A DNA stretch of 56,075 bases from Candidatus Nanopelagicales bacterium (lineage in GTDB: Bacteria > Actinomycetota > Actinomycetes > S36-B12 > UBA5976), in contig JAOATY010000015.1 of the NCBI GenBank assembly GCA_030157865.1, forward strand, positions 6,888 to 62,962, read 5' to 3'. The notes below the pieces were generated by a model. It did no database searches. It was not told where the DNA came from and saw only the letters and a program-made list of their open reading frames with translations. Each line of letters starts with the position of its first letter. The stretch's first letter is position 1. The translations under genes were made by a program, and so were the position numbers. Of the stretch, positions 48,251 to 51,795 are shown piece after piece.

Positions 48251-49294
48251 TCAGGCAGTTAAGTCCCATCGGCATCCGCAGGAAGGATGAAAGAAGGTGG
48301 GATACATCTCACCGGAATCAGCATCTCTGCTCAACTTAAGGAGATGAGGCTCCGATATTTGGCTGCCATCTACCCAGGAACAAACTCTCTGAACGACTTC
48401 TAAGGCAGTTCTCAGAATCAGTGAAATCGAAGCACTATCAACAACTGGGTTCTGTGAAATCTGAAGATCAATTAACGGCCATTGCGAATCTTGATCGCAT
48501 CTGTGCAGATGAAGGCATCGCAAACAAGGTGCCTTACCTGGATGAATCACAGAGCTAACTAATCCAGCCCCAGAACTAGTTGTCGCAAACATGTGTGGAG
48601 TGTCCGTTGCCACAAACTGATCCGCACTGATTGCAGAAATCCAAGGAAAGTCTGCCCGTTGATCTGGCAGCAATATTTCAATGCGTTTGTTTGATTTGTA
48701 GCGAAGTTCGTTTTTGTGCGAAGCAGCACCACGAATCATTCGTTCAATCAAGCTCTTTGCCGCTGTATCTCGCCGGATTCCGATGTCTAGCCGTGAGGCG
48801 CCCCAAGGAGTTAGGTCAGATTCACTGACGATGGCTGAATCATGAACTGTGATGTTTGGAAAACCAGCACTAGCCATCAAGAGGCAAACCGTCATGCCAA
48901 GTCGGCCGGCACCTTGGATTGAAATCTCGCACCCAATTCGCTGCTTGATCGCCTCCAAGTCACCAAAAGTTTCCCGGGAAAGGTTCAATCGTTGGATTTC
49001 ACTTACCGGATTTTGGTGGTCATAGGTGATTGCGACGGGTCCTGGTTCCACTAAGCCAAGTTCAACTAATTGGTTTAAGAAATTTTCACTTGATTGAAAG
49101 TTGTGGCCAGCGGATTCCAATTGGCCACAAATTTCAAAAACAGAATGCGCTCCATCAAGAAGCTTTCCAATGATTTGGCCAACCTTTTGATCAATAACTA
49201 TTGCTGAATCCGGATCAACACCAATTTGAACTTGCGAATTGCCACGCTCATAAAGCCGCACACCAGGCGCGAGTTTGGGATTAGAAATTTTCAT
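48251..49294 (-). CDS. ThiF-like adenylyltransferase-fold protein (TOMM-cyclodehydratase-like N-domain)
   Basis: A 347-aa protein. The N-terminal part (about 1-100) resembles the winged-helix leader-binding region of azole-forming cyclodehydratases; the centre has a Rossmann SIQGAGRLGMTVCLLMASAG with a following VHD. Two zinc Cys pairs are visible (PCLRCLHLHRC and SCGCRW). No peptide precursor or YcaO partner is nearby. It is a conserved neighbour of ABC1/uvrD2 in actinobacteria. ATG 49294 is chosen because homologs begin near KLAPGVRLY. The upstream extension to 49474 has no family similarity and would cover the DnaA-like boxes. Confidence 0.7.
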   Translation of the reverse strand: MKISNPKLAPGVRLYERGNSQVQIGVDPDSAIVIDQKVGQIIGKLLDGAHSVFEICGQLESAGHNFQSSENFLNQLVELGLVEPGPVAITYDHQNPVSEIQRLNLSRETFGDLEAIKQRIGCEISIQGAGRLGMTVCLLMASAGFPNITVHDSAIVSESDLTPWGASRLDIGIRRDTAAKSLIERMIRGAASHKNELRYKSNKRIEILLPDQRADFPWISAISADQFVATDTPHMFATTSSGAGLVSSVIHPGKAPCLRCLHLHRCDQDSQWPLIDLQISQNPVVDSASISLILRTALEVVQRVCSWVDGSQISEPHLLKLSRDADSGEMYPTFFHPSCGCRWDLTA

Positions 49295-49432
49295 TTCTGA
49301 ATCTTGCTGAACCCAACTTGTGTAAGAAGATGACCTTCCACAAAGCGTTTGTGTTACTTTCCGCGACAGTTTTTTGATCGATAAATAGCTCTTCAAAAAT
49401 AGTGAAAACTTCCAAGTTAGACATTTGCCCCA

Positions 49433-49591
49433 TGGGGATAAAACTTTTTTCTTTCCACATTCCGTGGACAACATAATGCCTGATGAAAGTGGATATTCAC
49501 AGGGTCACAATCGTTTTGTCCCCAAGTTGTTCACTAGTAATCCCCAGGTATATCGGCATCTATCCCCAGTTAGTCCCCAGCCTTGTCCACA
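49433..49591. other. cluster of DnaA-box-like 9-mers, partly phased at 11 bp
   Basis: Nine-mers close to TTGTCCACA/TTATCCACA occur at 49433 (-), 49451 (+), 49463 (-), 49488 (-), 49493 (+), 49516 (+), 49527 (+), 49538 (+), 49560 (+), 49571 (+) and 49583 (+). The last is a perfect TTGTCCACA; 49433, 49463 and 49516 match 8 of 9. From 49516 the plus-strand boxes step by 11, 11, 22, 11 and 12 bp with 2-3 nt gaps. An AT-rich stretch (49592-49620) follows. This fits a DnaA oligomerisation array: an origin, a titration site or a regulatory site. Confidence 0.6.
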
Positions 49592-49656
49592 GCAAAATTC
49601 AATACTTGTTAATTCACGTTGCATTAGTGCGTTACTTGCGCGTAAGTTTCACGAGT

Positions 49657-49730
49657 TGAAGCTCTCGAGATAACGAGCCGACATTCGCAAGGGGAAGGCG
49701 AATGTTCGAGCACGCGGCTCGAGAGCTTCA
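49657..49730. repeat. large nested dyad upstream of the metallopeptidase gene
   Basis: Perfect 13-bp outer arms TGAAGCTCTCGAG (49657-49669) and CTCGAGAGCTTCA (49718-49730) enclose an inner 8-bp stem ACATTCGC/GCGAATGT (49681-49688 and 49698-49705) with a purine loop AAGGGGAAG. CGAGCCG (49674-49680) and CGGCTCG (49715-49721) give an alternative pairing. Could be a structured RNA, a cruciform or a protein-binding dyad. It does not fold as a tRNA. Confidence 0.7.
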
Positions 49731-49753
49731 TCATTTTCGGCAGACCTCTGGAC

Positions 49754-49759
49754 TAGCCT
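49754..49759 (+). promoter_or_regulatory. -10-like hexamer, leaderless start of the metallopeptidase gene
   Basis: TAGCCT is 7 nt before the GTG at 49767. The nearby ATG at 49762 runs straight into a stop. Confidence 0.45.
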
Positions 49760-49766
49760 GAATGCT

Positions 49767-50390
49767 GTGACCGGACAAAATCAGCCATCGCTATTCGATT
49801 CTGGCGACGACTTTTCTGTCCCCGAAGTGGATTCCGCTGATGCTGGGGAATTTGTCTATAAGCGAACTGATTTATCTAAAGTCGAAATTAAACGCAGTAA
49901 GCGAGCAAAACGGAACGTAACTGCTTATCGCGATAACGACAAAACAGTTGTCACCGTTCCCACCAGAATGGCAAAGCGCGACATCGATGCATACGTTACC
50001 GAGTTAGTTAATCGGCTAGATGATCGTGACGAGCGAACCAGTTCCCAAGAATCATTGGAACAGCGTGCTCGGGTCCTTTCAAAGAAATATCTAGGGCAAG
50101 ATCTTTTTGAAACTCATAAGGTGCCCGTAAAGATTCGTTGGGTGACCAATCAAAATTCGCGCTGGGGCTCTTGCACTCCCGATGAAGGCACTATCCGCCT
50201 GTCACATCGGATGCAGCGAATGCCGAGTTATGTAATTGATTCAGTGATTGTTCACGAGCTGATTCACTTGCTTGTTACAGACCACAGTCCGGCATTTTAT
50301 GAATTTATGAATAAGTATCCGCAACATGAAAAAGCGAAAGCGTATCTAGATGGCTATTCTCATGCGCAGCAATATTTCAAGCCGGAATAG
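49767..50390 (+). CDS. YgjP/SprT-like zinc metallopeptidase (M48-type annotation)
   Basis: A 207-aa soluble protein. NQNSRWGSCTPDEGTIRLSH precedes the zinc site HELIH (163-167) with a third His at 173 (TDHSPAFYE). This is the pattern of the YgjP/DUF45 metallopeptidases. The first 60 residues are polar and variable; the substrate is unknown. The start is GTG. It is separated from the ThiF-like gene by 472 bp that hold the DnaA-box-like array and dyad, so its promoter may respond to whatever binds there. Confidence 0.88.
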   Translation: MTGQNQPSLFDSGDDFSVPEVDSADAGEFVYKRTDLSKVEIKRSKRAKRNVTAYRDNDKTVVTVPTRMAKRDIDAYVTELVNRLDDRDERTSSQESLEQRARVLSKKYLGQDLFETHKVPVKIRWVTNQNSRWGSCTPDEGTIRLSHRMQRMPSYVIDSVIVHELIHLLVTDHSPAFYEFMNKYPQHEKAKAYLDGYSHAQQYFKPE

Positions 50391-50410: not shown

Positions 50411-51745
50411 TTAAGAATTGTTCTCTGGATCTTCTTTTGAGGATTCAATCGCCTTGTTAAGTTCCGCCATTAGGTCCTCAGTTCCAGTCGAAAGAAATGC
50501 ATCGATGTCGTCTATGTCTGAGTCTCTAGGAAGCAAGTCAGGGTGAGACCACAGTGCATCTCGGGCTGCTAAGCCTTGGGTGTCTGCAAGTCGCTGCCAT
50601 AAGGCCGCAGCTTCACGCATTCGACGCGGACGCATCTCAAGGCCGATTAATCCGCCAAAGACTTTCTCTGCAGGACCACCTTCTGCTCGGCGACGTCGAA
50701 ACACTTCCTCGAGCGCGCTAGCACTTTGTAGGCGAGTGCCAGCGGCCTGAGTAACGACGACCGTGACCCAGCCTTCAATCAGTGCCAATAGAAGCTCGAT
50801 GCGAGTTAGTGCAGCAACCTGCTCTGGGGTTTGAGTTGGTTCAAACAGGGATGAGGTCATCATGCTGTTGATGCTGTCTGGATTGGTTGGATCAATCTGA
50901 GTCATCGCTTCTTCGATCGCACTGGTGTCGATCTTCACGCCACGGGCATAGTCCGAAATTGCTGCCATCAATTGAGACTGAATCCAAGGAGCTGCCGTAA
51001 ACAATCTTTGGTGGGCGAGTTCGCGAAGTGTTATGTAGAGCCTGGCTTCAGACTCATCAATTGATAAGCCCTTAATGAATTCATTAGCATTCGAAATCAC
51101 TAAACCTGGCTTACCGGATGCATTCAATGGAATGCCAACATCGGAGTTACTCAAAACTTCGGTAGTCATCTGTCCAAGTGCCTGGCCAAACTGTGTGCCA
51201 AACATCGTTGCTCCCATAGATTTGGCCATGGCCATGAGAGGTCCGGTGATTGCTGCAAAGTCAGGAGATGCCAAAGTTTCCCGCAGATTTGCAGCGACCT
51301 CGTCAGGAAGACTTGAGAGCAACTCTTCAGGAATATTCAGAGCACCAGCATCGTTACCTGAAGGCAGCATGCCAGTCATTACACCTGCCATGGCATCGGC
51401 AACTGGCTGCACAACTACTTTCCAGGAATCAAAAGTCGATGCAAGCCATTGCGTGCGAGTTACGCCATTGATGGTGTGACCAGCACTTGGAATCGTGGTT
51501 GCATCATTGAGCCACAAATCGGCTAGGTCGGCAGCAGCGCGCAGTTTTTCATTATCGGATTCATTGATTGAGGGGTCGCCAGCTTTTTTCAGAGCCTGAT
51601 CCGAAGCGGTGTGAGCACTGGTCCAGTTAACAGAGCCACCCGATGGATCGCCGCCGTTACGAAGCATGCGACCCATGTTTTCGAGCATGTCGGCCAGCTC
51701 GTTGTTATCGTCGCCACCTGGTGCAAATCCGAACGGAATACTCAT
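50411..51745 (-). CDS. DUF2342 zinc-dependent metalloprotease-like protein
   Basis: A 444-aa protein of the DUF2342/hydrolase TIGR03624 group. SIPFGFAPGG at the N-terminus, a Gly-rich helix with FGTQFGQALGQM and the segment RELAHQRLFTAAPW match the family. At the presumed zinc site the sequence reads RELAH in place of HExxH, so hydrolytic activity is doubtful. ATG 51745 is chosen over 51790 because a good promoter (TTGACA at 51795-51790, TACTTA at 51771-51766) overlaps the longer reading. It is the counterpart of Rv3195. Confidence 0.85.
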   Translation of the reverse strand: MSIPFGFAPGGDDNNELADMLENMGRMLRNGGDPSGGSVNWTSAHTASDQALKKAGDPSINESDNEKLRAAADLADLWLNDATTIPSAGHTINGVTRTQWLASTFDSWKVVVQPVADAMAGVMTGMLPSGNDAGALNIPEELLSSLPDEVAANLRETLASPDFAAITGPLMAMAKSMGATMFGTQFGQALGQMTTEVLSNSDVGIPLNASGKPGLVISNANEFIKGLSIDESEARLYITLRELAHQRLFTAAPWIQSQLMAAISDYARGVKIDTSAIEEAMTQIDPTNPDSINSMMTSSLFEPTQTPEQVAALTRIELLLALIEGWVTVVVTQAAGTRLQSASALEEVFRRRRAEGGPAEKVFGGLIGLEMRPRRMREAAALWQRLADTQGLAARDALWSHPDLLPRDSDIDDIDAFLSTGTEDLMAELNKAIESSKEDPENNS

Positions 51746-51765
51746 AACGCCTACTTTTCTGGTCT

Positions 51766-51795
51766 TAAGTAGTTTTAAGGTTATGCCCATGTCAA
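51766..51795 (-). promoter_or_regulatory. sigma70-type promoter of the DUF2342 gene
   Basis: On the minus strand TTGACA (51795-51790) is followed after 18 nt by TACTTA (51771-51766), about 20 nt before the ATG at 51745. This is the clearest two-box promoter in the window. Confidence 0.5.

Follow-up and report, generated by a model that had tools for sequence, protein, structure and literature searches.

What a dense, phased group of DnaA-box-like 9-mers does at a distance from dnaA is the question raised by this locus. The window (the whole stretch of 56,075 nucleotides that was analysed) belongs to contig C15 of an actinobacterial draft genome of 1.61 Mb in 45 contigs. The original prediction, made from the letters of the window, offered four readings of the boxes: a relocated origin, a site for titration or reactivation of DnaA, a DnaA-controlled promoter, or iterons for another factor.

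The phased array

Twelve 9-mers with at most two mismatches from TTRTCCMCA are found at 49424–49591, and seven of them have at most one mismatch (Table 1). The distal block TTTTCTTTCCACA...GTGGACA is conserved genus-wide, as revealed by the alignment. The proximal boxes keep the predicted 11-bp helical step, with a degenerate slot at 49549, and include the single perfect box that had been reported. Many boxes have weak 5′ ends, that is, TCCCCA cores lacking TT.

The predicted cluster at 49433–49591 proved to be real. The 160 bp of the array contain seven boxes with no more than one mismatch to TTRTCCMCA, against a maximum of one per 160 bp elsewhere in the window; among 200 sequences simulated with a first-order Markov model of the whole window, the maximum was mostly 2–3, and two reached four. 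With the stricter TTRTCCACA, four boxes were counted in the array and a Markov maximum of three. Words resembling TTGTCCACA show no enrichment when counted over the whole window, so the signal consists in the clustering and phasing.

Table 1. Features of the array locus and its surroundings (positions in the window)
Feature	Position	Strand	Sequence or remark
ThiF-family protein (PF00899)	48251–49294	−	syntenic neighbour; corrected start near 49294
Distal part of conserved region	49424–49501		six DnaA-box-like 9-mers, both strands
Box	49424	+	TTTGCCCCA
Box	49433	−	TTATCCCCA
Box	49451	+	CTTTCCACA
Box	49463	−	TTGTCCACG
Box	49488	−	ATATCCACT
Box	49493	+	ATATTCACA
Proximal head-to-tail DnaA-box array	49516–49591	+	six boxes, steps 11/11/22/11/12 bp
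Box	49516	+	TTGTCCCCA
Box	49527	+	TTGTTCACT
Box	49538	+	TAATCCCCA
Box	49560	+	CTATCCCCA
Box	49571	+	TAGTCCCCA
Box	49583	+	TTGTCCACA, perfect match, nearest to promoter
Putative −35	49619–49624	+	TTGCAT, 27 bp past last box; TTGAC in most relatives (alignments)
Putative −10	49643–49648	+	TAAGTT, 18-bp spacer; TAGGTT or TAGCGT in relatives
Conserved structured RNA (predicted)	49655–49737	+	long closing helix, short internal pairs, apical 7-bp stem, 3′ T-run
Apical motif	49686–49700	+	CGCAAGGGGAAGGCG; 9-nt loop AAGGGGAAG at 49689–49697
YgjP-like metallopeptidase (PF01863)	49767–50390	+	syntenic neighbour
Zincin-like metallopeptidase (PF10103)	50411–51790	−	syntenic neighbour

A predicted hairpin RNA and its putative promoter

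Directly downstream of the array lie a putative promoter and a predicted hairpin RNA of about 83 nt, both missed by the original prediction. The AT-rich stretch said to follow the boxes is in fact a short AT-richer spacer that ends in the putative promoter and shows no evident unwinding element. In the alignments of relatives, the array is followed on its 3′ side by TTGAC, 17–18 bp and TAGGTT or TAGCGT, with the predicted start of the RNA some 6–7 nt further on. The −35/−10 pattern is conserved in the alignments, and in AT-richer genomes a T-run stands behind the hairpin. A simple consensus scan of the window scored neither promoter nor terminator; the TTGCAT of the window itself is a poor match.

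The covariance model matches the window at 49654–49739 with 90.4 bits (E 6e-21). The predicted fold has an energy of −41.3 kcal/mol and a z-score of −5.24, and none of 200 shuffled sequences folded as well. In the alignment of 22 loci of the genus, the array makes up one half of the conserved block and an almost invariant hairpin containing TTCGCAAGGGGAAGGCG, followed by T-runs, makes up the other. The first covariance model, built from 26 sequences, had compensatory changes in 17 of 24 pairs, and in the refined alignment A3, with 88 distinct sequences, all 24 pairs demonstrate two-sided changes. Pairing in A3 amounts to 93.9% of cells, a figure somewhat inflated by the fitting of A3 to the structure, compared to 77% in shuffled alignments (0 of 500 shuffles reach it) and 42–48% in slid controls; an independent MAFFT alignment gave the same helices. 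The covariation and the compensatory changes found in favour of the hairpin RNA fold are overwhelming.

The loop AAGGGGAAG varies hardly at all within the class and can be recognised in other classes. The exposed loop is likely the functional contact, to an RNA or a protein. No target of the hairpin RNA was found, and the matches of the loop complement CTTCCCC near dnaA are scattered, with no consistent place. As a speculative observation, AAGGGG within the loop could pair with the 16S anti-Shine-Dalgarno CUCCUU with one G-U pair. The viral contigs L303 and L304 also match the loop pattern with unusually long spacers, probably by chance.

None of the 4227 families of Rfam 15 reaches its gathering threshold with the hairpin. 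A few weak matches by E-value were rejected as a possible identity; they concern unrelated families or are located elsewhere. Judged against Rfam 15 and the open-access literature, the putative RNA gene is previously uncatalogued.

Conservation and context of the array and the RNA

The RNA was found with the first model in 70 of 197 genomes of the class, and with the refined 88-sequence model in 112 of 296 (about 38%), essentially once per genome; the refined model also detected it beyond the class, in a few genomes of some other classes. It was undetected in many families of the class, where absence means no match under strict filters. Orthologues of YgjP are present in 46 of 60 relatives. 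Nearly all of the 30 loci examined around YgjP have an intergenic box cluster, weaker in some, and all eight loci of the order-level relatives carry the same array-RNA element.

The scan of relatives that had been proposed for the array revealed conservation of both boxes and RNA from the genus to about 24 families, of which three are outside the class (L267–L270). In these families 3–7 TCCMCA boxes lie at a constant position upstream of the promoter and RNA, and nearly every one of them has the orientation of the RNA. Over 90 upstream regions, which cover about 24 families and include 22 near relatives that are not independent, the RNA strand has a mean of 4.97 TCCMCA, compared to 0.32 for the opposite strand and 0.19 for shuffled controls. 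The distance between neighbouring cores in the same 90 loci is 11, 12, 22 and 23 bp in 61, 77, 66 and 30 cases, respectively, with weaker multiples near 33, 44, 54 and 65 bp.

The RNA without the array was found in the Nanopelagicales-type family f27, in f21 (L055, L061, L064, L066, L070, L071, L101 and L102 for these two) and at one f11 locus; in these lineages the array is either lost or was never present. Neighbourhoods negative for the RNA mostly have no array either, as counted in 13 of 20 control loci, and scoring of all 20 with the RNA model gave one weak match, in the f28 locus L321. Another f21 locus (L310:2894-2950, genome G091) has three TCCACA boxes at intervals of 11–13 bp ahead of a ThiF-like region, and no RNA was detected there; this may be a relic. 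The conservation of the array-RNA pair across much of Actinomycetota suggests a small RNA tied to a DNA-replication switch.

The open reading frame of the ThiF-family protein was listed from 49474. Homology sets in some 398 bp ahead of the RNA loop; the true start is therefore almost certainly close to 49294, which makes the array intergenic. The commonest arrangement in relatives is Zincin(+), YgjP(−), array and RNA in the same forward direction, DUF5679(+) and ThiF(+). In the genus of the window, the array and RNA as one block have the opposite orientation with respect to YgjP, ThiF and Zincin (49295–49766 in the window, compared to the arrangement of the order in L035–L042), and in other lineages the block is located between Zincin and a PDZ protein. 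The gene on the 3′ side of the RNA varies as well, being YgjP, DUF5679, PDZ or Zincin in various orientations. The joint inversion and the variable flanks indicate that the array and the RNA form one unit, independent of a particular neighbour. The possibility that the RNA is a cis-leader of YgjP or another gene was rejected on account of the same variability of neighbours and orientations. In the window, YgjP seems to have a leaderless promoter of its own after the T-run of the RNA, with a conserved TAGCCT about 7 nt before the GTG at 49767.

DnaA control and its alternatives

A normal oriC beside dnaA, for which a search had been recommended, is present in the same genome. Contig C3 has the gene order yidC-dnaA-dnaN-recF-gyrB with parA/parB nearby (names were assigned from translations), and the gap between dnaA and dnaN contains five exact TTATCCACA boxes and four that differ at one position. 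The pair TCCCCA-N5/6-TCCACA has exactly two matches in the genome of the window, the array and oriC. Across 23 genomes of the genus there are 44 matches to TCCCCAN5-6TCCACA, compared to two for the reversed control, and the 30 pair loci classified in the genus comprise 15 arrays, 12 oriC regions between dnaA and dnaN, and three found elsewhere. A third recurrent TCCCCA-N6-TCCACA pair, mostly TCCCCAAAAGGATCCACA, occupies another locus (L302 and matches in G001, G004 and G016).

The boxes of the array have the canonical or a nearly canonical form of DnaA boxes, and the strongest is the one closest to the promoter. The array and oriC of the same or related genomes share a box type, and in order-level relatives oriC itself is built of YYRTCCCCA boxes. 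The protein bound at the array is thus inferred to be DnaA. The experimentally defined spacing agrees with this, as binding of E. coli DnaA to box pairs requires a gap of 2 or 3 bp (an 11–12 bp step) and is disrupted by an additional 1 bp (PMC11317965); the same-direction boxes of the array show this gap of 2–3 bp. It is unlikely that a different transcription factor binds here, at direct repeats merely resembling DnaA boxes. That reading draws on the many boxes reduced to a TCCMCAG core without the 5′ TT, and the original suggestion of iterons likewise relied on the TCCCCAG core. The use of YYRTCCCCA in the oriC of order-level relatives answers this concern, and the near confinement of the boxes and their pair signature to oriC and the array in the genus, together with the DnaA pair spacing, weakens it further.

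The main rival explanation, improbable as the main function, is that the array titrates, inactivates or reactivates DnaA in the manner of datA or DARS, the transcription of the RNA being incidental or clearing DnaA from the array. The single locus per genome, far from oriC and with several phased boxes, speaks for such a role, and E. coli has loci of this kind, including transcription-dependent effects at datA according to PMC4585315 and PMC10950094. Against it stand the fixed distance of the array from the promoter and RNA in many families and its inversion along with the RNA. The mid-replichore position also varies: in the four large complete genomes of the class that carry the array, the locus is at 50–79% of the distance from dnaA to the terminus. 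In three of them dnaA is at the record start and the locus is 0.67–0.75 round the circle; in the fourth, G237, the locus is 1.73 Mb from dnaA in a genome of 4.41 Mb. Titration or recycling of DnaA may coexist with control of the RNA as a second role.

In some plasmids, DnaA arrays beside hairpins load the helicase. By this precedent the hairpin could function as DNA, for instance as an extruded hairpin that loads a primosome together with the DnaA boxes, with no RNA made. This is very unlikely in view of the putative promoter with conserved spacing between array and hairpin, the T-run after the hairpin in AT-richer genomes, and the 139 G-U cells compared to 32 A-C cells in the RNA alignment; such an excess is expected if this strand is the transcript. 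Finally, a relocated or second chromosomal origin, which the dense phased boxes and the following AT-richer stretch might recall, was rejected and has a negligible probability, given the normal dnaA-dnaN oriC in the same genome, the distance of the locus from dnaA in complete relatives and the GC skew along the window, which has no clear switch at the array.

Among the four readings offered originally, the DnaA-controlled promoter is the best supported, and the owner of the promoter, a predicted structured RNA gene, is what had remained unseen. Probably, as far as can be judged from sequence, DnaA oligomerises on the array and controls the transcription of the hairpin RNA, the array being fused to the RNA promoter. 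DnaA, probably in its ATP form, would assemble head to tail on the boxes phased at 11–12 bp, with nucleation at the strong promoter-proximal TTGTCCACA/TTATCCACA box, and this assembly would set the activity of the putative sigma-70-type promoter 27 bp downstream. The effect on the promoter may be activation or repression, the sequence being compatible with either. The hairpin RNA of about 83 nt would then be made in step with initiator activity and would probably act in trans through the conserved AAGGGGAAG loop. The weak 5′ ends of the boxes, the poor −35 of the window and the many families of the class in which the RNA was undetected count against this explanation. The RNA can do without DnaA control, since it persists in f27, f21 and one f11 locus where the array is absent.

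DnaA-regulated promoters are already known, and several systems are comparable in part. Like datA, DARS1 and DARS2 of E. coli, the array is a conserved non-oriC cluster of DnaA boxes far from dnaA; those loci are defined by their effect on the nucleotide state of DnaA (its ATP/ADP ratio) and need sites for accessory proteins, whereas the array is known from sequence and is locked to a promoter and an RNA. Streptomyces, also an actinobacterium, has DnaA-box clusters outside oriC (D78 and H69), for which we know of no associated RNA. The RNA model had no match in f22, a family of large genomes that may be Streptomyces. The hairpin resembles 6C and other actinobacterial small RNAs of Rfam in being a small hairpin RNA but differs in having no gathering-level match. 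The "double DnaA box" sites of E. coli at purH, polA and mutH/DARS2 consist of two same-direction boxes with a 2–3 bp gap, in many cases a strong one and a weak one, and precede transcription units (PMC11317965). The direction, gaps and upstream location are alike; here, in Actinomycetota, 3–7 phased boxes precede a putative non-coding RNA. At the DnaA-activated sda promoter of Bacillus subtilis, a DnaA-box cluster couples the state of the initiator to another process (PMC4447404); the link of cluster and promoter is shared, but sda encodes a protein and no homologous element is present at the array. CcnA of Caulobacter crescentus is a non-coding RNA in a cell-cycle circuit, as is proposed here, but the accessible part of its description mentions no DnaA-box array promoter (PMC8959179).

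The open-access literature yielded no description of the array-RNA unit, nor of a phylum-wide non-coding RNA with a phased DnaA-box promoter. In Actinomycetota, little is understood of how replication is coupled to growth and, to our knowledge, classical datA/DARS loci are not established. A more tentative proposal, for which the odds are somewhat less than even, is an ancient phylum-level circuit in which a dedicated small RNA is directly driven or repressed by DnaA and, through its conserved loop AAGGGGAAG, would pass the state of replication back to genes of translation or replication. If true, this circuit would represent a cell-cycle RNA switch of a kind so far undescribed. The unit can be tested in culturable relatives such as Brevibacterium and Planktophila, the latter, without the array, being a natural control. 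If control by DnaA is confirmed, the unit could serve directly as a reporter of initiator activity, and perhaps also act as its effector.
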